From the IMG/VR virus record IMGVR_UViG_3300042406_000186, positions 1 to 39,654 of that record: DNA of 39,654 bases; one strand, written 5' to 3'. Position numbers and translations under genes: made by a program. Origin of the DNA: a virus. Positions 17,362-32,123 of the stretch are shown piece by piece (the stretch's first letter is position 1; every line of letters begins with the position of its first letter). Below the pieces are notes generated by a model, which saw only the letters and a program-made list of their open reading frames with translations, did not search any database and was not told the DNA's origin.

Positions 17362-17509
17362 TTTTTTTCTTTCTTTTCTTATTAGCAACATATATACTCC
17401 CGATGGGCAGACCATTTTCCTGTACTCCCGTACCCACAGTAACGTCGCCATACACAGAAGCAAGAAGCGTAGCAATCGCTTGCGGGCTAACTTCAACATC
17501 AAAACCCAC
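17354..17509 (-). CDS. Small unknown protein (51 aa), GTG start
   Basis: GTG at 17509, stop TGA 17356-17354. The product starts MGFDVEVSPQAIATLLASVY, continues VYGDVTVGTGVQENG, and ends in a basic KKRKKKNV tail. It overlaps the stop of the sigma-like gene by 11 nt and the start of the 92-aa gene by 8 nt, the same short-overlap style as the rest of this operon. The amino-acid mix looks protein-like, whereas the competing in-frame extension of the 92-aa gene reads as an Arg/Leu-rich shadow. No clear ribosome site; translation is probably coupled. Function unknown. Confidence 0.5.
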   Translation of the reverse strand: MGFDVEVSPQAIATLLASVYGDVTVGTGVQENGLPIGSIYVANKKRKKKNV

Positions 17510-17861
17510 CGTTATCTGTCGTGTCTTCAAGTCCGAGCCTTTCTCTAATAATAGGATTCTCTAAGAGGTGGAATCGTAACCGCTCATAAGCAGCATTCCT
17601 TAGTCTCCAAGCATGAGGTTTGGACACGCCAAGCCTTCCCCCAAGTTCTTCAAGTGAAATCATTTCTGAGTTGATTGCGTCAATAATGAAACGGTCTTGT
17701 TCTCCAAGTTGTTCAATGCATTCCGCTATTGCCTCTCGCAGTGGTTGGAGTTCTACTACAGACTCAACAAGGTTCTCACCGCTGGCAGCCATCATCAACG
17801 CCTCCATCGGCGTTTCTGGTCTCCTAGTTCCACGAAGGTTTGCTTCGTGGAACGGAGTCAT
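17499..17861 (-). CDS. Sigma-70 region-4-like helix-turn-helix protein (120 aa)
   Basis: Residues 40-67 (LREAIAECIEQLGEQDRFII) and the helix-turn-helix at about 69-95 (SLEELGGRLGVSKPHAWRLR then NAAYERL) match the pattern of sigma factor region 4, which contacts the -35 element. There is no region 2, so it is not a full sigma factor; it could redirect or co-activate host RNA polymerase for phage promoters. I chose ATG 17861 because AGAGAAG precedes it and it follows a small gene by 10 nt; a GTG 14 codons upstream is possible. Similar short proteins occur in actinobacteriophages as I recall. It is a candidate reader of the plus-arm TAACGA elements, which is speculation. Confidence 0.7.
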   Translation of the reverse strand: MTPFHEANLRGTRRPETPMEALMMAASGENLVESVVELQPLREAIAECIEQLGEQDRFIIDAINSEMISLEELGGRLGVSKPHAWRLRNAAYERLRFHLLENPIIRERLGLEDTTDNGGF

Positions 17862-17871
17862 CGATACTTCT

Positions 17872-17964
17872 CTATTCTTCAAAGTCGTCTGGCTTATCTC
17901 CACAAGATGGATTACGTGGAACTACTCCACGATAAACACAGCAACAAAGTTTTGCATTACTCAT
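17872..17964 (-). CDS. Cys-rich micro-protein (30 aa)
   Basis: ATG at 17964 overlaps the stop of the upstream nuclease gene by 8 nt (ATGAGTAA). Stop TAG 17874-17872 lies 10 nt before the sigma-like ATG. The product has a CCCVYRG run plus a fourth cysteine (PSCGDKPDDFEE), enough to bind one metal ion. Support is the tight fit between two coupled genes and the Cys pattern; a chance reading frame of this length is possible. Confidence 0.4.
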   Translation of the reverse strand: MSNAKLCCCVYRGVVPRNPSCGDKPDDFEE

Positions 17965-18800: not shown

Positions 18801-19693
18801 GGTCTAAATGCTCCAGTCGTATCTAATCCGTAAACGTCTTCAACTATCTTCACTAACTGTTCTACTGAATCAGTACGCAGATGAAACTTTCCCCAACGCT
18901 TGTCAGCATCAACGAGTATTACATATGCATGGTTCATTGGAGTACCTAAGTTGCGCATCTTGTGCACCATCCTGACCAACGTTGTTGACCTGTCGCTTCC
19001 ATCAAGAGGTCCGTGCCTCCAGATGGTTGCAACATATCCATCAACATGGTCAAGTGCTTCCTGAACGGAAACACCAACTGGAAGGTTGTCAAGTTGTGCC
19101 TTGCTCTTTGGTCTGTGCATCTCTGCCAATGGCAACAGCGTCTTTGCAGAAACCCTGCTTATCAAAGCAGAGTTTAGAAAAGTACTGAGCGTCATCGGAA
19201 CATCATCTGAATCAAAAAGAATATAACGATTCTCTGGAATCACATGCATACCGTTTGGATACGGTAAGCGAACATAGTTCCCAAGTCCGGTTGTTTCTTC
19301 TTGCTTTGGATTGACTTCCTTTGGCGGTAAACCAATGGCTTCGTGTGCCGACAGGAATGCTCTACGCATTACTGCTGCAGATATCCAGTCGCTGGCAAAC
19401 ACCCACACATGAAAACCCTTGCGGGTTTTCTCAACGAATGACGGTATGCCTTTGACCATGAGTGCTGTTTGTAGATTGCGTGCAGAGTCAATGTCATCAA
19501 CATCAATATCTGAACACCCCCACTTGACTGTGTTGCCAAGTGTGAGCGGGTAGATACCAATGAGTTCTTTGCCATTGAGATGATTGGCAAATGTTTCTGC
19601 GGTCACAACTGACTTCACAGCACCACCTTCCCAAGTCCCGTAAGCATCTGTACGACCTTCAAACAGTGTCTTGAACATCTCTACTTCAGTCAT
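18797..19693 (-). CDS. Archaeo-eukaryotic-type primase / primase-polymerase (298 aa)
   Basis: The catalytic-type segment KWGCSDIDVDDIDSARN carries D62 and D64 (the hhhDhD motif). KTRKGFHVWVFA (residues 89-100) carries the second motif with H95, and GNYVRLPYPNGMH (138-150) follows, as in the AEP superfamily used by plasmids and phages. It should make primers for replication, possibly with polymerase activity. The start is ATG 19693, overlapping the helicase stop by 8 nt with GGGA inside the helicase end; the frame is open 14 more codons upstream, but those run antisense-style through the helicase end and look spurious. No DNA polymerase gene is seen, so extension probably relies on the host or on this protein. 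Confidence 0.8.
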   Translation of the reverse strand: MTEVEMFKTLFEGRTDAYGTWEGGAVKSVVTAETFANHLNGKELIGIYPLTLGNTVKWGCSDIDVDDIDSARNLQTALMVKGIPSFVEKTRKGFHVWVFASDWISAAVMRRAFLSAHEAIGLPPKEVNPKQEETTGLGNYVRLPYPNGMHVIPENRYILFDSDDVPMTLSTFLNSALISRVSAKTLLPLAEMHRPKSKAQLDNLPVGVSVQEALDHVDGYVATIWRHGPLDGSDRSTTLVRMVHKMRNLGTPMNHAYVILVDADKRWGKFHLRTDSVEQLVKIVEDVYGLDTTGAFRP

Positions 19694-20714
19694 AAGCCAT
19701 TCCCATCTGCAGGTATTGCTCTGGCAGTTCACCATCTAGTTCACGAAGACGACCAGTTGCTGTGTCTAACTCAAAGTCAATGTCGTCAACAAGTTGCCCT
19801 GCTGGTCGTTTGTTCTTGAGTAGCGACACGGTGACTGTGTGTTCGTGCACCTTGGCTTCATGGCGTAGCAATTCGAGCCTGTCTTGTGCACGCTCTGAAT
19901 GTGAACGGTCAAGTTTCTCAATCAGTTCGTACATCTCGTGCGCAATCTGATATTTCTTGCGACGGACACCGATGATTGATGTTGCTTGTTGTTCTCCACC
20001 GAATGAACCAGATGACATGGTGAGTTTCGCACCATCAGCGCCAGCATGGCGTGATGTTTGGTGCAACACGAGAATCGGCACATCATGCCGACGACCGAAA
20101 CCTTTGAGGAAGGTTGCTTTGTCTGGAACTGTTTCTCCTGCTTCAACTAGGTCTAGGTAGTCAACCACAACCAGTTCAGGTACTTGTCCCCACACATCAC
20201 AAACTTCACCGTAGGCACGTTCCATGTCGGAACTTGTCAGTGGCTGGTCAAACACAGCGAGGTTTGGAAAATCTTCCTCTGCTGTTCGGCGTAGCAAGTC
20301 AATGGCTTCTTGGTCATCGGCTGCAACACGTGCTTCCAGTTCTCGTGCATCAATTCCATGATGCATACAGGTGAGTTTGGTCAATACGAGTTGGCGTGGC
20401 TCGTCAGGTATGAACATTGCAATGTGTTTGTCACGGTTGTTGCGAAGTGCATGAAGTAGTAAGAGTGTCTTACCGCCGTGTGCAAATCCCAACATCATGG
20501 CAATTTCGCCCGGTGCAATGCCTCGTAGTTCTTTATCTATCCGACCGATACCAAGATGTACTCTGTCTTGCGGTGACTGTGCCCAACGCACAAATGAGTC
20601 AGCCGCTTCTGAAAGAGGTGTGTACATTCGGTACTCAGAGAGTTGTGGAGCGACCGCGGATGGTCGCCCCACATTCTCCCAGCCAGCAGATATTTCTTCT
20701 GCTGATAGTCTCAT
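19686..20714 (-). CDS. DnaB-type (RecA-fold) replicative helicase/ATPase (342 aa)
   Basis: Walker A GFAHGGKT at residues 76-83, Walker B-type strand PELVVVDYLDLV, and VPILVLHQTSRHAG as the sensor-like motif define a DnaB/RecA-fold ATPase. GSFGGEQQATSIIGVRRKKY and the later SLLKNKRPAG match the helicase core's C-terminal part. At 342 residues it lacks the usual N-terminal primase-interaction domain of DnaB, which fits with the separate AEP primase encoded next to it. It should unwind DNA at the fork as a ring. ATG overlaps the upstream TAA by 1 nt. Confidence 0.85.
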   Translation of the reverse strand: MRLSAEEISAGWENVGRPSAVAPQLSEYRMYTPLSEAADSFVRWAQSPQDRVHLGIGRIDKELRGIAPGEIAMMLGFAHGGKTLLLLHALRNNRDKHIAMFIPDEPRQLVLTKLTCMHHGIDARELEARVAADDQEAIDLLRRTAEEDFPNLAVFDQPLTSSDMERAYGEVCDVWGQVPELVVVDYLDLVEAGETVPDKATFLKGFGRRHDVPILVLHQTSRHAGADGAKLTMSSGSFGGEQQATSIIGVRRKKYQIAHEMYELIEKLDRSHSERAQDRLELLRHEAKVHEHTVTVSLLKNKRPAGQLVDDIDFELDTATGRLRELDGELPEQYLQMGMAYD

Positions 20715-21172: not shown

Positions 21173-22041
21173 TAGTTTGCCTCCTCGGCATTTGTTGTTT
21201 CGCTCGTGATGTACGAGCCTTTGCACATTGACCATACAGGACACCAACGCTGTGAGCATAGGTAATGCTGGTCATTTACTATCCATCGTGTTGATGGCAT
21301 TTTCGCTTGAACCGTCAACAGGTTGTTGACGAGTGCGATTGTTTGGTCAATTATCCATTGACCGTGTTCTGGTGTTCGTGTAATAGAAACGATTTGTCCT
21401 GTTGACGAAGCGTTCCTAATCATGACGCCGAAGTTGAATTCAACCGGGTAATCAATCATGCCCATTGCATGAGATGCTTCTGCGTACACAGATGATTGAA
21501 CATTCTGTGTTTGCTTCTCCGCTTGATAATACTTTCGAGCCGCTGTCTTCCAGTCCCAAATACCTTTCGGGTGGAAGTAATCCATCGTGCCCTCAAACCA
21601 GAGTTCATACTCAAACAGTTCGTTGTCCACATGAGCAACTTTAGTCTCAAACTTGTACTCACACTCGCCACCTTCAGGAACGCTGGGCATGATGTCTCGT
21701 GCCCATGCTTCTGCCATTGATGCAATGTGTTTGTCCCAGTTCTTCGGGTCTGTGTTGGTGATGTTGATTGACTTGCCCTCAGCCTTGAGATGCGCTTCCT
21801 TGGTGCGGAATGCGTACACAGAGCGTTCGGCAATGTCTCGTATGTCAATTTCTCCACGCAAATAATTCTCAATCCCTGCGTGCACAGCCGTGCCCATCAT
21901 TGCTGAGTCGTTTTCTTTGCGTGTCTCAGGGTGTAACGCCGTGAGCCTTGCTCGTTCGGGACACATCAAAGCATCACCAAGCCATGACTGGCGGATGAAA
22001 ACTTTGGTTACGTCGTAGCCATTGTTGTTATCTAATCTCAT
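21172..22041 (-). CDS. Cas4/RecB-like PD-(D/E)XK exonuclease with Fe-S-type cysteines (289 aa)
   Basis: Motifs in order: C27 in ALMCPERARL, H54 in GTAVHAGIE, D154 in EGTMDY, D163-x-K165 in IWDWKTA, Q182xxxY186 in VQSSVYAEA, then C262, C267 and C273 near the end (LCSQRWCPVWSMCKG). This is the order of Cas4/AddB-type nucleases, in which one N-terminal and three C-terminal cysteines hold a 4Fe-4S cluster; C-x4-C-x5-C differs slightly from the commoner spacing. It should resect DNA ends in recombination. I chose ATG 22041 because AAAGGA lies 6 nt upstream; ATG 22074 is in frame but less well placed. First gene of the operon running to 16677. Confidence 0.82.
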   Translation of the reverse strand: MRLDNNNGYDVTKVFIRQSWLGDALMCPERARLTALHPETRKENDSAMMGTAVHAGIENYLRGEIDIRDIAERSVYAFRTKEAHLKAEGKSINITNTDPKNWDKHIASMAEAWARDIMPSVPEGGECEYKFETKVAHVDNELFEYELWFEGTMDYFHPKGIWDWKTAARKYYQAEKQTQNVQSSVYAEASHAMGMIDYPVEFNFGVMIRNASSTGQIVSITRTPEHGQWIIDQTIALVNNLLTVQAKMPSTRWIVNDQHYLCSQRWCPVWSMCKGSYITSETTNAEEAN

Positions 22042-22078
22042 GTTTTTCCTTTGTTTGTTTTTGTGTACGTACATGTTT

Positions 22079-22103
22079 GCGCCGTTGCCTAAGCAACAGG
22101 CGC
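22079..22103 (-). promoter_or_regulatory. GC-rich leader hairpin before the replication operon
   Basis: GCGCCGTTGC (22079-22088) pairs with GCAAC-A-GGCGC (22093-22103) around the loop CTAA: ten base pairs with one bulged A. It lies 38 nt upstream of the nuclease ATG and has no T tract after it on the minus strand, so it is not a standard terminator. Confidence 0.6.
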
Positions 22104-22176
22104 ATAACTACTGGCTAGACCCCCCCCTTTCCCCCCCATTGTGACAGACAATGAGAGGGAATGCTGGGGTGGTCAG

Positions 22177-22198
22177 AACTGATATTGAAGTATCAGTT
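22177..22198. promoter_or_regulatory. 22-bp palindrome, copy 1 of 6
   Basis: AACTGATAT-TGAA-GTATCAGTT on the plus strand; the 8-bp arms AACTGATA/TATCAGTT are shared by all six copies. It begins 2 nt past the lysozyme-like stop (TAA 22203-22201) and 135 nt before the ATG of the replication operon. Candidate operator or processing site. Confidence 0.85.
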
Positions 22199-22200
22199 TT

Positions 22201-22620
22201 TTACAGACCCCACGGACCAAATCCGTTGTCATATCGGGCTTCTGCATAGTTGTGAATAGCAAGTGCTGCTCTCAGGTTGCGGTAAGGACCGAACAGCCCC
22301 TCAGAACGGCTTACAATGCCTCTAGAAGCCAACCACGGTGTCCAGAAGCCATTGATTTGCACCAATCCTCTTGAACCACCCATTGGGTCTTCGGTGTTGT
22401 GAGCGCCTGTGTTGCATCGGCTTTCTCTCCACATCAGATAATCCAGTGTTGGTAGAAGTGACGGTTTCCACCCTGCATCAACAGCGGTTTGCCACCACTG
22501 AGGACAACGGGCAGAGGCAGAAATTTCGACCGGCTCTGGAACATCGTGCTTGGTAAAAGAAGTGGGGGGCACGAAGCCCCCCACACCTAATGAAATTGAG
22601 ATAAGTATTTTTGCTATCAA
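22201..22620 (-). CDS. Secreted lysozyme / SLT-like murein hydrolase (139 aa)
   Basis: Residues 1-20 (MIAKILISISLGVGGFVPPT) look like a signal peptide or anchor. The domain from about 38 on has YLMWRESRCNTGAHN with the expected catalytic E66, then GSRGLVQINGFW and NLRAALAIHNYAEARY, the pattern of transglycosylase/lysozyme-like folds that cut the glycan strand. The predicted start is TTG 22620, directly after the upstream TAG, with a strong AAGGGGGG site; no ATG lies upstream in frame. A terminator-like hairpin lies in the signal-peptide codons (22555-22584). Encoded on the minus arm with WhiB and the amidotransferase, away from the holin-like genes, so it may remodel the wall rather than only lyse. 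Confidence 0.75.
   Translation of the reverse strand: MIAKILISISLGVGGFVPPTSFTKHDVPEPVEISASARCPQWWQTAVDAGWKPSLLPTLDYLMWRESRCNTGAHNTEDPMGGSRGLVQINGFWTPWLASRGIVSRSEGLFGPYRNLRAALAIHNYAEARYDNGFGPWGL
22555..22584 (-). terminator. Intragenic terminator-like hairpin in the lysozyme signal-peptide codons
   Basis: On the minus strand GTGGGGGGC pairs perfectly with GCCCCCCAC (9 bp, positions 22584-22562) around the loop TTCGT, followed by TTCTTTT (22561-22555). This has all parts of an intrinsic terminator but lies 36-58 nt inside the lysozyme-like gene. It may attenuate that gene until antitermination, or end the upstream operon. Confidence 0.6.
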
Positions 22621-22845
22621 CTATTCCCCCCTTAGTGCTTCCAATAAAACATCTTCCATCTCGCCTTTGGCGGACAGAAGTTCTTCCAACTCTGCATGAG
22701 TTGAGTCGGCTCTCCGACCATCACCTAGACGCTGGGTTTTCTTTGCCAGTTGGTCTACGCCGATAGCCAAAGACTTGACGACAGCACGTAACTCAGAGAG
22801 AGTTAGTGTCACCTCAAGGGTTGGTTCTTCTTTGCGATTACTCAC
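22621..22845 (-). CDS. Small helical protein (74 aa), unknown
   Basis: GTG start at 22845 overlapping the upstream stop (GTGA). The sequence LEVTLTLSELRAVVKSLAIG then HAELEELLSAKGEMEDVLLE is charged and helical with heptad-like spacing, so probably a coiled coil. No membrane segment or motif. Last gene before the lysozyme-like gene, which begins directly after its TAG. Function unknown. Confidence 0.6.
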   Translation of the reverse strand: MSNRKEEPTLEVTLTLSELRAVVKSLAIGVDQLAKKTQRLGDGRRADSTHAELEELLSAKGEMEDVLLEALRGE

Positions 22846-23375
22846 GGTAGTTGCCTTTCATTTTCTTTTGCGGATGAGACTTTCAGCGCACGAACAACGT
22901 CGTACATGTCTTGCATGGCACTTGCTAATGAGCCCATTGCGTTACCTTCGTCGTATGTAACGGTTTCGCTGTCCGTAAATCGGATAGACGAACCCATTTT
23001 TCCGTTGTGCATCATTGTCATAAGACGAACACGCTTACGTTCAGGGTGTTGTGATGGTGCAATTTCGTTGTTTGCATCATTGTCTTTGTCAATCGGTGAA
23101 GCCCAACCTGTAGTAACAACAGCAAAGCCGTTGTATTCCATGCTGAACAACCTGACTGCATTCAATGTGTCGTCAAGCATTTCGTAGATGTCTCCCTGCT
23201 CATCAATGTTCTTGATAGCCGGGACTTCACCACGAACATAATCAACAGCAAACAAAATTGATTTGCCTAAGTTGAATGGGTCTGTGGTCAGACTTTCTAC
23301 CTTGCTTGCTACTGCTTGGTCAATCTCTCTGAGAGTTTGCTCAAACTTTTCTGTGTATGTGATTGCTGTGTTCAT
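22842..23375 (-). CDS. Unknown protein (177 aa) following WhiB
   Basis: The N-terminal half is helical (KFEQTLREIDQAVASKVESL, then AIKNIDEQGDIYEMLDDTLN). A beta-rich centre FAVVTTGWASPIDKDNDANN is followed by ERKRVRLMTMMHNGKMGS and ends in a helix. It looks like a folded cytoplasmic protein, and I recall similar unassigned proteins in other actinobacteriophages. ATG 23375 overlaps the WhiB stop by 4 nt, with AGAAAG upstream. No catalytic motif; function unknown. Confidence 0.65.
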   Translation of the reverse strand: MNTAITYTEKFEQTLREIDQAVASKVESLTTDPFNLGKSILFAVDYVRGEVPAIKNIDEQGDIYEMLDDTLNAVRLFSMEYNGFAVVTTGWASPIDKDNDANNEIAPSQHPERKRVRLMTMMHNGKMGSSIRFTDSETVTYDEGNAMGSLASAMQDMYDVVRALKVSSAKENERQLP

Positions 23376-25354: not shown

Positions 25355-25376
25355 AACTGATACTGGAGTATCAGTT
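25355..25376. promoter_or_regulatory. 22-bp palindrome, copy 2 of 6
   Basis: AACTGATAC-TGGA-GTATCAGTT, a perfect inverted repeat with 9-bp arms. The TGA stop of the amidoligase gene (25373-25371) lies inside it. It ends 38 nt before the amidotransferase ATG, with an A/C-rich leader (CACAAACAACAAACAAG) and AAAGGA between. Confidence 0.88.
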
Positions 25377-26435: not shown

Positions 26436-26488
26436 GATTAGCCCTTTCTGTTTGTTGTTTGTATGTTTGTCCCACAGCCGAAGCCGTA

Positions 26489-26533
26489 GGCGAGAATGCA
26501 CCAATGTATGGGGGACACTGATGCACTCTCGCC
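26489..26533 (-). promoter_or_regulatory. Leader hairpin before amidoligase A
   Basis: GGCGAGA-A-TGCA (26489-26500) pairs with TGCA-C-TCTCGCC (26522-26533): 11 base pairs with one A/C mismatch and a 21-nt loop. It lies between palindrome copy 3 and the start codon, in the same place as the hairpins before the replication operon and the 79-aa membrane protein. Confidence 0.55.
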
Positions 26534-26539
26534 CACGCA

Positions 26540-26561
26540 AACTGATATCGCAGTATCAGTT
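26540..26561. promoter_or_regulatory. 22-bp palindrome, copy 3 of 6
   Basis: AACTGATAT-CGCA-GTATCAGTT. It lies 14 nt past the stop of the 58-aa gene (26576) and 104 nt before the amidoligase A ATG. Confidence 0.85.
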
Positions 26562-27738: not shown

Positions 27739-27760
27739 AACTGATACCGAAGTATCAGTT
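27739..27760. promoter_or_regulatory. 22-bp palindrome, copy 4 of 6
   Basis: AACTGATAC-CGAA-GTATCAGTT, perfect 9-bp arms. As minus-strand RNA this is C-UUCG-G, a very stable tetraloop. The TGA stop of the 79-aa gene (27757-27755) lies inside it. It lies 38 nt before the amidoligase B ATG, with CACAAACAAACAAACAG between. Confidence 0.88.
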
Positions 27761-28037: not shown

Positions 28038-28094
28038 GCAACACCATGCAGAGGGTCACATGATGTTGCGGTAACTCACACAGAGTTACGCAAC
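28038..28094 (-). promoter_or_regulatory. Two mutually exclusive leader hairpins
   Basis: Hairpin 1: GCAACA-C-CAT (28038-28047) pairs with ATG-A-TGTTGC (28060-28069). Hairpin 2: GTTGC-G-GTAACTC (28065-28077) pairs with GAGTTAC-GCAAC (28083-28094), 12 base pairs with one bulged G. Both need GTTGC at 28065-28069, so only one can form. They lie in the leader of the 79-aa membrane protein next to palindrome copy 5. Confidence 0.5.
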
Positions 28095-28113
28095 TGATAT
28101 CGCAGTATCAGTT
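28092..28113. promoter_or_regulatory. 22-bp palindrome, copy 5 of 6
   Basis: AACTGATAT-CGCA-GTATCAGTT, identical to copy 3. It overlaps the TAA stop (28114-28112) of the 145-aa gene and lies 97 nt before the ATG of the 79-aa membrane protein. Confidence 0.85.
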
Positions 28114-28622: not shown

Positions 28623-28644
28623 AACTGATACCGCAATATCAGTT
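28623..28644. promoter_or_regulatory. 22-bp palindrome, copy 6 of 6
   Basis: AACTGATAC-CGCA-ATATCAGTT, 8-bp arms plus one near match. It lies 22 nt past the stop of the 56-aa gene and 73 nt before the ATG of the 145-aa gene. Confidence 0.85.
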
Positions 28645-30360: not shown

Positions 30361-30495
30361 ATGGTTGAATGTCCTGAGTGTGGCGAGGAGTATCCACCTG
30401 TGGCAACACATTGGATTTGTCCAGCGTGCGGGATTGATGACAGGGCACAGCCGAAGATGGCGGTGTTTGAATTGAGGGATTATGGCGACAACTAA
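30361..30495 (+). CDS. Small zinc-ribbon protein (44 aa)
   Basis: ATG 30361, stop TAA 30493-30495. Four cysteines in two knuckles (VECPECGEEY and WICPACGIDD, C4/C7 and C20/C23) form a typical zinc ribbon, with a short tail. GAAGG lies upstream. It overlaps the next gene by 14 nt and follows the terminase gene after 2 nt. Probably a nucleic-acid- or protein-binding adaptor; its function is unknown. Confidence 0.68.
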   Translation: MVECPECGEEYPPVATHWICPACGIDDRAQPKMAVFELRDYGDN

Positions 30496-31199: not shown

Positions 31200-32123
31200 A
31201 TGCCTTCCTTCATTAGAAACACATCAGGTGGTAAAGCCATCAGCGGTGGAGCGTTGGCTCCACGCTCACGCCGTGGTAATAACACTGACCAAGTAGCGTC
31301 TTACTGGTCTGGTGGTGTATCTGCTGTATCAGAAATTGAATACTTGGTCATTGCGGGTGGCGGTGGCGGTGGAACATTTACTGGTGGTGGCGGTGGCGGT
31401 GCTGGTGGTTATCGCACATCTGTAGTTGGTGCAACCTCTGGTGCAAACAGTTCTGCCGAGTCTAAATTGGCTGTTTCTGCTGGAGTTGCATATACGGTCA
31501 CTGTTGGCGGTGGAGGCGGTGCAGTAACTAACGGCTCTGATTCTGTATTGAGCACGATTACTTCTGTTGGTGGTGGTGCTGGAGGAAACTACAATAACCC
31601 TCGCAACGGTCAAAGCGGTGGTTCAGGTGGCGGTGGTTGCGGTGGAACATCTAGCGGTACTTCAGGTGGTTCAGGAACCGCAAACCAAGGAACATCAGGT
31701 GGTACAAACTGGACTGCATCACAATATGGTGCAGGCGGTGGCGGTGGAGCAAGTGGTGGTGGTGGACAAGGTTCTGCGTCTGTTGGTGGTGCTGGTGGTG
31801 CTGGTCTATCTAACTCAATTACTGGTACTGCTGTAACCCGTGGTGGCGGAGGTGGTGGTGGTGGAGACTTTATTACTGGTGGTAGCGGTGGTTCAGGCGG
31901 CGGTGGAAGCAGTAGTGGTGGAAGCGGTTCAGCAAACACTGGTGGCGGTGCAGGTGGAGCAACCTACGGTGGTGGTGGTGGAACAGGTGGTTCAGGAGTT
32001 GTTATTATTCGTTATGCAGATTCTTTTCCTGCTGCATCTGCAACTACTGGTTCACCAACAATTACGACAACTGGTGGATTCCGTATCTATCAATTTACTG
32101 GTTCAGGAACGATAACTTTCTAA
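31200..32123 (+). CDS. Gly-rich tail fibre / receptor-binding protein (307 aa)
   Basis: A short polar start (PSFIRNTSGGKAISGGALAP) is followed by EIEYLVIAGGGGGGTFTGGG and long glycine runs separated by Ser/Ala/Asn to about residue 268, ending in GVVIIRYADSF and RIYQFTGSGTITF. Such glycine-rich domains form polyglycine-II bundles in phage adhesins (as in some fibre-tip proteins), which present variable loops to the receptor. The start and end motifs match the common 'glycine-rich domain' proteins of phages. Length variation in the glycine runs could change receptor choice. It overlaps the next gene by 1 nt. Confidence 0.78.
   Translation: MPSFIRNTSGGKAISGGALAPRSRRGNNTDQVASYWSGGVSAVSEIEYLVIAGGGGGGTFTGGGGGGAGGYRTSVVGATSGANSSAESKLAVSAGVAYTVTVGGGGGAVTNGSDSVLSTITSVGGGAGGNYNNPRNGQSGGSGGGGCGGTSSGTSGGSGTANQGTSGGTNWTASQYGAGGGGGASGGGGQGSASVGGAGGAGLSNSITGTAVTRGGGGGGGGDFITGGSGGSGGGGSSSGGSGSANTGGGAGGATYGGGGGTGGSGVVIIRYADSFPAASATTGSPTITTTGGFRIYQFTGSGTITF

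Follow-up and report, generated by a model that had tools for sequence, protein, structure and literature searches.

Why should a structure with the shape of a transcription terminator lie within the first translated codons of a phage gene? The locus that raises this question is a lysozyme-like ORF of 139 aa on the minus strand (22201..22620) of the window, the whole 39,654-nucleotide stretch of viral DNA analyzed here. The ORF starts with TTG, has a signal-peptide-like N terminus, and matches two Pfam families, SLT_3 at 30.9 bits (cut-off, 27) and SLT at 21.3 bits (cut-off, 21.3); among the window ORFs scanned against Pfam, no other muralytic domain was found. Directly upstream lies a 74-aa gene (22621..22845, minus strand), whose stop codon adjoins the start of the SLT ORF or overlaps with it. 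The lineage of the window encodes a P22/SU10-like portal, a terminase, and WhiB. WhiB is a marker of actinophages in the literature (PMC10202952), and from this marker the host of this family of uncultured phages is probably a freshwater actinobacterium. Scans of genome contigs found no copy of the SLT gene in host genomes, and two SLT queries found no match to the protein among the named phages of GenBank.

The hairpin in the SLT gene

The core of the hairpin (hairpin 1) occupies 22562..22584 on the minus strand, i.e., +37..+59 of the SLT ORF, with an outer extension spanning 22558-22588 on the same strand. Read along the minus strand from 22584 to 22562, it consists of GTGGGGGGC, the loop TTCGT, and GCCCCCCAC; the T-rich tail TTCTTTT (22555..22561, minus strand) follows, and the whole is translated in frame as GVGGFVPPTSF. 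The 9-bp stem is perfect, has eight G-C pairs, and amounts to about -21 kcal/mol, and the site is by far the strongest combination of a hairpin with a T-run in the 39.6-kb window. The hairpin that a sequence-only reading had described in this lysozyme-like gene is thus real in stem, loop, tail, and encoded peptide. A Shine-Dalgarno-like AGGGGGG (22626..22632, minus strand) precedes the TTG and falls outside the stem; hence, the SLT start is not hidden by hairpin 1.

The codons that form the stem are rare in the window genome, GGG making up 5.6% of the Gly codons and CCC 5.7% of the Pro codons, and only 5/2000 synonymous recodings of the window sequence fold equally well; hence, codon use does not explain hairpin 1. 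The fold of the whole 101-nt region around it is ordinary when set against dinucleotide shuffles (z, -0.8), because such shuffles retain the runs of G and C; the informative tests are therefore codon-aware and comparative ones, rather than whole-region shuffling. An Rfam search of 21900-23000 returned only a chance match, far under the gathering score, and no curated family.

Selection on the RNA structure

All 13 close relatives of the window SLT in IMG/VR (74-99% amino acid identity) have GGG GGC at codons 14-15 and CCC CCC at codons 18-19, with every third position of the 7-bp core invariant; in 14 close sequences, these four codons are among the 11 invariant columns of the 48 that are comparable. 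In L014 and L015, the 3' arm lies in a different reading frame and encodes GGFTAP instead of GGFVPP, and the stem is still kept. Remoter sequences, missed by the first search, were reached with the 74-aa gene as bait together with a diverse SLT profile. Across about 24 relatives, the hairpin is found at about +28..+65, the strong ones having -20 to -26 kcal/mol, and nearly all carriers of the 74-aa gene have one at the matching place built from different stems, the alternatives including ACGGGGGGCTC/GAGCCTCCCGT, TTGTTGGGGGC/GCCCCCAACAA, TCTTGGGGGGC/GCCCCCCAAGA, and ATGGGGGGC/GCCCCCCAT. The hairpin is weakened in L168, L170, and L173 and is lacking in L209, L212, L216, and L217. Distant SLT genes in other neighborhoods are mostly without a comparable hairpin, L016 having a weak one. 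The TTG start, which had earlier been pointed out as weak, is shared by nearly all relatives, L172 having GTG instead. In the SLT gene of L171 (2219-2662, plus strand), the lysozyme-like catalytic domain has diverged very far (30% identity, on a very long branch), yet the gene retains the usual signal-peptide region and hairpin 1, which suggests that a domain exchange may have occurred downstream of the hairpin.

Under synonymous recoding, the strong SLT hairpins had z scores between -2.2 and -6.0 and the weakened ones scores of -2.1 (L173), -1.5 (L168), and -0.8 (L170), with no signal in the four hairpin-free relatives. In a gap-free alignment of 20 sequences, 96.1% of the stem cells are paired (85.0% in shuffles), 13 cells are double changed (2.9 in shuffles), and the covariation score is 0.271, against 0.086 when shuffled and at most 0.133 in slid versions. 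These values of pairing and covariation were reached in 0/500 shuffles, counts of this kind not being exact probabilities, as the compared sequences share kinship. For 21 distinct arm pairs anchored by hand, arm swaps matched the observed pairing in 0/1000 cases, with two weaker measures being less striking (35/1000 and 156/1000). By relatives, covariation, and recoding alike, the stem is conserved beyond the codon constraint, a check that the sequence-only reading had itself put forward, and the regulatory role that it had assigned to the hairpin is likely.

A second hairpin in the helicase gene and other elements of the window

A scan of gene starts flagged a comparable hairpin in the gene for a DnaB-like helicase (19686..20714, minus strand), which lies three genes downstream of the SLT gene in the same operon and whose ATG start overlaps the upstream stop (TAATG). 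The core of this hairpin 2 is a 12-bp stem, TGTGGGGCGACC/GGTCGCTCCACA, at 20644..20673 on the minus strand (+42..+71 of the helicase ORF); with its outer helix, it spans 20640-20678 on that strand (+37..+75). It has no U-run. The helicase hairpin is better conserved than the SLT hairpin, being present in 28/28 diverse sequences with a mean recoding z of -6.2 and each value at -3.4 or lower. Its stem cells are paired in 94.2% of cases (79.9% shuffled), 32 cells are double changed (11.2 shuffled), and its covariation score is 0.444 (0.206 shuffled; slid versions, ≤0.130). Helicases that are 74-76% identical have wholly different stems, for instance, GAGGGTCAGGTGAA/TTCACCTGACCTTT or GTTGAGAGTCAGGC/GCCTGATTCTCAAC, and encode peptides differing there in both sequence and length; across these differing stems, the strength (-22 to -28 kcal/mol) and the place (+35..+82) stay constant. 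The sole match of the helicase to a named phage, MW202803.1, has a different, weaker hairpin at +74 and no equivalent of hairpin 2.

Taking both genes together, the stem has its base about 33-46 nt past the start codon, and loops measure between 3 and 12 nt. Both hairpins contain G-U pairs when read in the coding sense, while the A-C cells that the opposite strand would be expected to give are missing from the conserved helix core, which identifies the sense RNA as the molecule under selection. A hairpin is thus present at a set position in these genes, selection acts on the RNA of the coding-sense strand, and the conservation is of structure and not of sequence. When eight operon genes were scanned by codon shuffling in 17 phages, a consistent 5' hairpin emerged in the SLT and helicase genes only. 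As the element recurs in the helicase gene, lysozyme, a signal peptide, toxicity, or lysis timing does not suffice to explain it. Indeed, the link that had been drawn between hairpin 1 and the signal peptide of a toxic wall-degrading product is weakened by a like hairpin at the same distance from the start of a cytoplasmic helicase gene.

A candidate hairpin 3, GTTCCACGAAG..CTTCGTGGAAC (17827..17853, minus strand), is partly conserved near the start of a gene weakly resembling sigma-70 region 4 (17499-17903, minus strand); the GTG start at 17903 is wrong, because relatives show in-frame stops, and the real start is probably the TTG at 17870. Hairpins in the genes at 30482 and 31200 were rejected, having no consistent conservation; the DNA at both places is near-identical between phages, and recombination is possible there. 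The gene at 31200-32123 (plus strand), which encodes a glycine-rich domain, is nearly identical over its first 100 nt in phages that differ elsewhere and diverges in the remainder, which looks like a recombination hot spot exchanging the downstream part.

The window further holds six copies of the palindrome ACTGATA-N6-TATCAGT (22178-22197, 25356-25375, 26541-26560, 27740-27759, 28093-28112, and 28624-28643), each of them within, or bordering on, a short gap that precedes a leftward gene; six copies were reached in 0/100 shuffles. Relatives have three to seven copies, with L004 and L007 showing a concertedly changed version, ACTGAGA-N-TCTCAGT, and the set is a candidate for the operators of one regulator. 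The strongest hairpin of the window, with a 23-bp stem and -38.6 kcal/mol (26485-26537, minus strand), directly follows one of these palindromes and lies upstream of an amidoligase-like gene; the TTG annotated as the start of that gene, at 26540, is probably too early. The gap between the SLT and exonuclease genes (22075-22200, minus strand) contains a strongly conserved ACAATGGGGGGGAAAGGGGGG, with TGT before it in several relatives and an extended -10-like TGTACAAT in L010; this element is a possible promoter of the exonuclease-helicase unit.

Possible roles of the hairpins

The hairpin is a selected, cis-acting element of the sense mRNA within the opening 20-25 codons of the SLT gene, and the helicase gene carries another member of its class. 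Selection maintains a stem-loop of about 9-14 bp with -20 to -28 kcal/mol and leaves sequence, loop, and encoded peptide nearly free. Such near freedom of stem sequence and loop fits a physical barrier, be it to the ribosome, to a 3'-to-5' exonuclease, or to RNA polymerase. Of these, we lean toward the translating ribosome, in line with the stalling that the sequence-only reading had named as its second option, at a confidence somewhat short of even: the hairpin may pause early ribosomes and thereby throttle the genes that carry it, the pausing and its effect on dose being what we infer. A ribosome would meet the stem with about codon 8-10 in its P site, pause, and slow the translation of that gene. 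The rear edge of the paused ribosome would still be near the start codon, hindering the next initiation, a step that we infer here and that is marginal for the farthest stems (some helicases, with the base at +46). Two low-dose proteins would in this way be throttled inside a tightly overlapping operon.

Bacterial ribosomes are known to be paused by stem-loops of 11-12 bp located 11 nt from the P-site codon, and neither the sequence nor the length of the loop affects this pausing (Bao et al. 2022, PMC8861025). By analogy, the constraint pattern of the phage hairpins matches that of these pausing stem-loops: they are independent of sequence, have loops of 3-12 nt, and agree approximately in length. 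The likeness extends to Escherichia coli dnaX and HIV gag-pol (PMC8861025), in which stem-loops of ~11-12 bp lie in the coding region and structure matters over sequence; the phage hairpins differ in being placed just after the start codon, without a slippery site or a conserved alternative frame. Programmed frameshifting was rejected, as the number of codons to the first stop varies from 2 to 69 without a pattern and no slippery heptamer was seen upstream of the stem. Several observations count against pausing: the stem is not fixed at 11-12 bp but varies from 9 to 14 bp; the tails in the window clade have an excess of T, which pausing does not need; and the SLT hairpin co-occurs with a recognizable 74-aa gene and could serve the upstream message. 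Further, the SLT hairpin is dispensable, as it is weak in three relatives and missing in four.

A precedent at a phage lysozyme gene is gene e of T4, where an mRNA helix hides the start region on early transcripts (review, PMC3014915). Both are RNA hairpins at such a gene, able to restrain read-through expression (PMC3014915); however, the T4 helix sequesters the Shine-Dalgarno sequence or the AUG, whereas hairpin 1, with its stem at about +28..+65, lies wholly inside the ORF and leaves the start region free, and in the window phage family a helicase gene has a hairpin too. Two other candidates were rejected. An internal start after hairpin 1 (GTG at codon 17) varies between GTG, CTG, and ATG or is missing among relatives, and a G-rich Shine-Dalgarno sequence competing with the C-rich arm is not conserved, many relatives having AAGGAGAT there.

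The main rival to pausing is segmental protection of the upstream gene, which we consider a real possibility but an unlikely one. Here, the hairpin would block 3'-to-5' decay, so that the upstream message outlives the downstream one, and its place within the following ORF would be due to gene overlap that leaves no gap. Intercistronic hairpins that stabilize mRNA, such as the REP elements and those of the Rhodobacter puf operon, are tolerant of sequence and lie between genes at the junctions of polycistronic messages. The phage hairpins share their sequence tolerance and their position at junctions and differ in being translated. Sequence-independent stems would suit a barrier to an exonuclease, and both hairpins begin about 35-45 nt past the upstream stop, which places them clear of a ribosome terminating there. 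All bearers of hairpin 1 have the 74-aa gene upstream, an association that is biased because many of them were found with that gene as bait. L212, L216, and L217, without a recognizable 74-aa gene, lack hairpin 1 and keep the helicase hairpin; however, L212 and L216 have an unrecognized small gene in its place, L209 has the 74-aa gene but no hairpin, and other overlapping junctions of the operon are without one.

An in-ORF attenuator or intrinsic terminator, suppressed by closely following ribosomes or by an antitermination factor, is in our estimate rather improbable. In the window, a G/C-rich stem is directly followed by a U-tract, as in Rho-independent terminators, and this is the only strong hairpin with a T-run in 39.6 kb. 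The tails of 13 close sequences contain 4.92 T per 10 nt where codon choice predicts 3.68 (0/5000), and those of a second group of eight show a weak excess (3.88 against 3.12 expected; 82/5000), these statistics coming from related, non-independent sequences; the excess over synonymous expectation is a feature of the window's clade only. Hairpins of the form GGGGGGC-N5-GCCCCCC are widespread in viral contigs (pattern scan, L025-L144), often in intergenic gaps with A-runs before and T-runs after them, and are likely a common two-way terminator shape. Across relatives, however, the U-tract is not conserved with the stem: it is absent in L167, L168, L170, L173, L174, and L175 (0.50 T, against 1.00 expected), and the "textbook" terminator of the sequence-only reading does not extend to these, T-enriched as the window clade is. 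Given these six relatives without T, termination is possibly a property of the window clade rather than what family-wide selection has kept. The phage site also differs from known terminators and attenuators in lying in coding sequence, and the helicase copy lacks a T-run; a terminator there would cut the replication genes off.

Less probable still is a translational operator bound by an RNA-binding regulator of phage or host. A conserved hairpin close to the start of a gene is typical of operators, and most of the phage hairpins have a G-rich 5' arm; however, loops and stems vary freely in sequence, no motif is shared within or between the two sites, and this near freedom makes a sequence-specific operator unlikely. 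Finally, the hairpins can hardly be an incidental result of protein constraint, of codon bias, or of a palindrome at the level of DNA: GG and PP codons do permit runs of G and C, but the recoding tests, the covariation, loops of 3 to 12 nt, and G-U pairs on the coding sense only contradict this.

Returning to a barrier to the ribosome or to decay, we see an even chance that this lineage uses in-ORF, sequence-tolerant hairpins of set strength and place as a general device for setting expression, in the SLT and helicase genes and perhaps in the sigma-like gene, with the protein following the RNA. In both an essential replication helicase and a wall-degrading enzyme, it is RNA structure and not the protein that dictates codons and even amino acids, a case that spans dozens of environmental phages. 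It also counsels caution, as "terminator-like" hairpins in coding regions need testing across relatives before they are labeled terminators. These phages offer a natural series of stems, differing in sequence and alike in strength and place, that is suited to testing whether, on polycistronic phage messages, stem-loops early in an ORF set gene dose.
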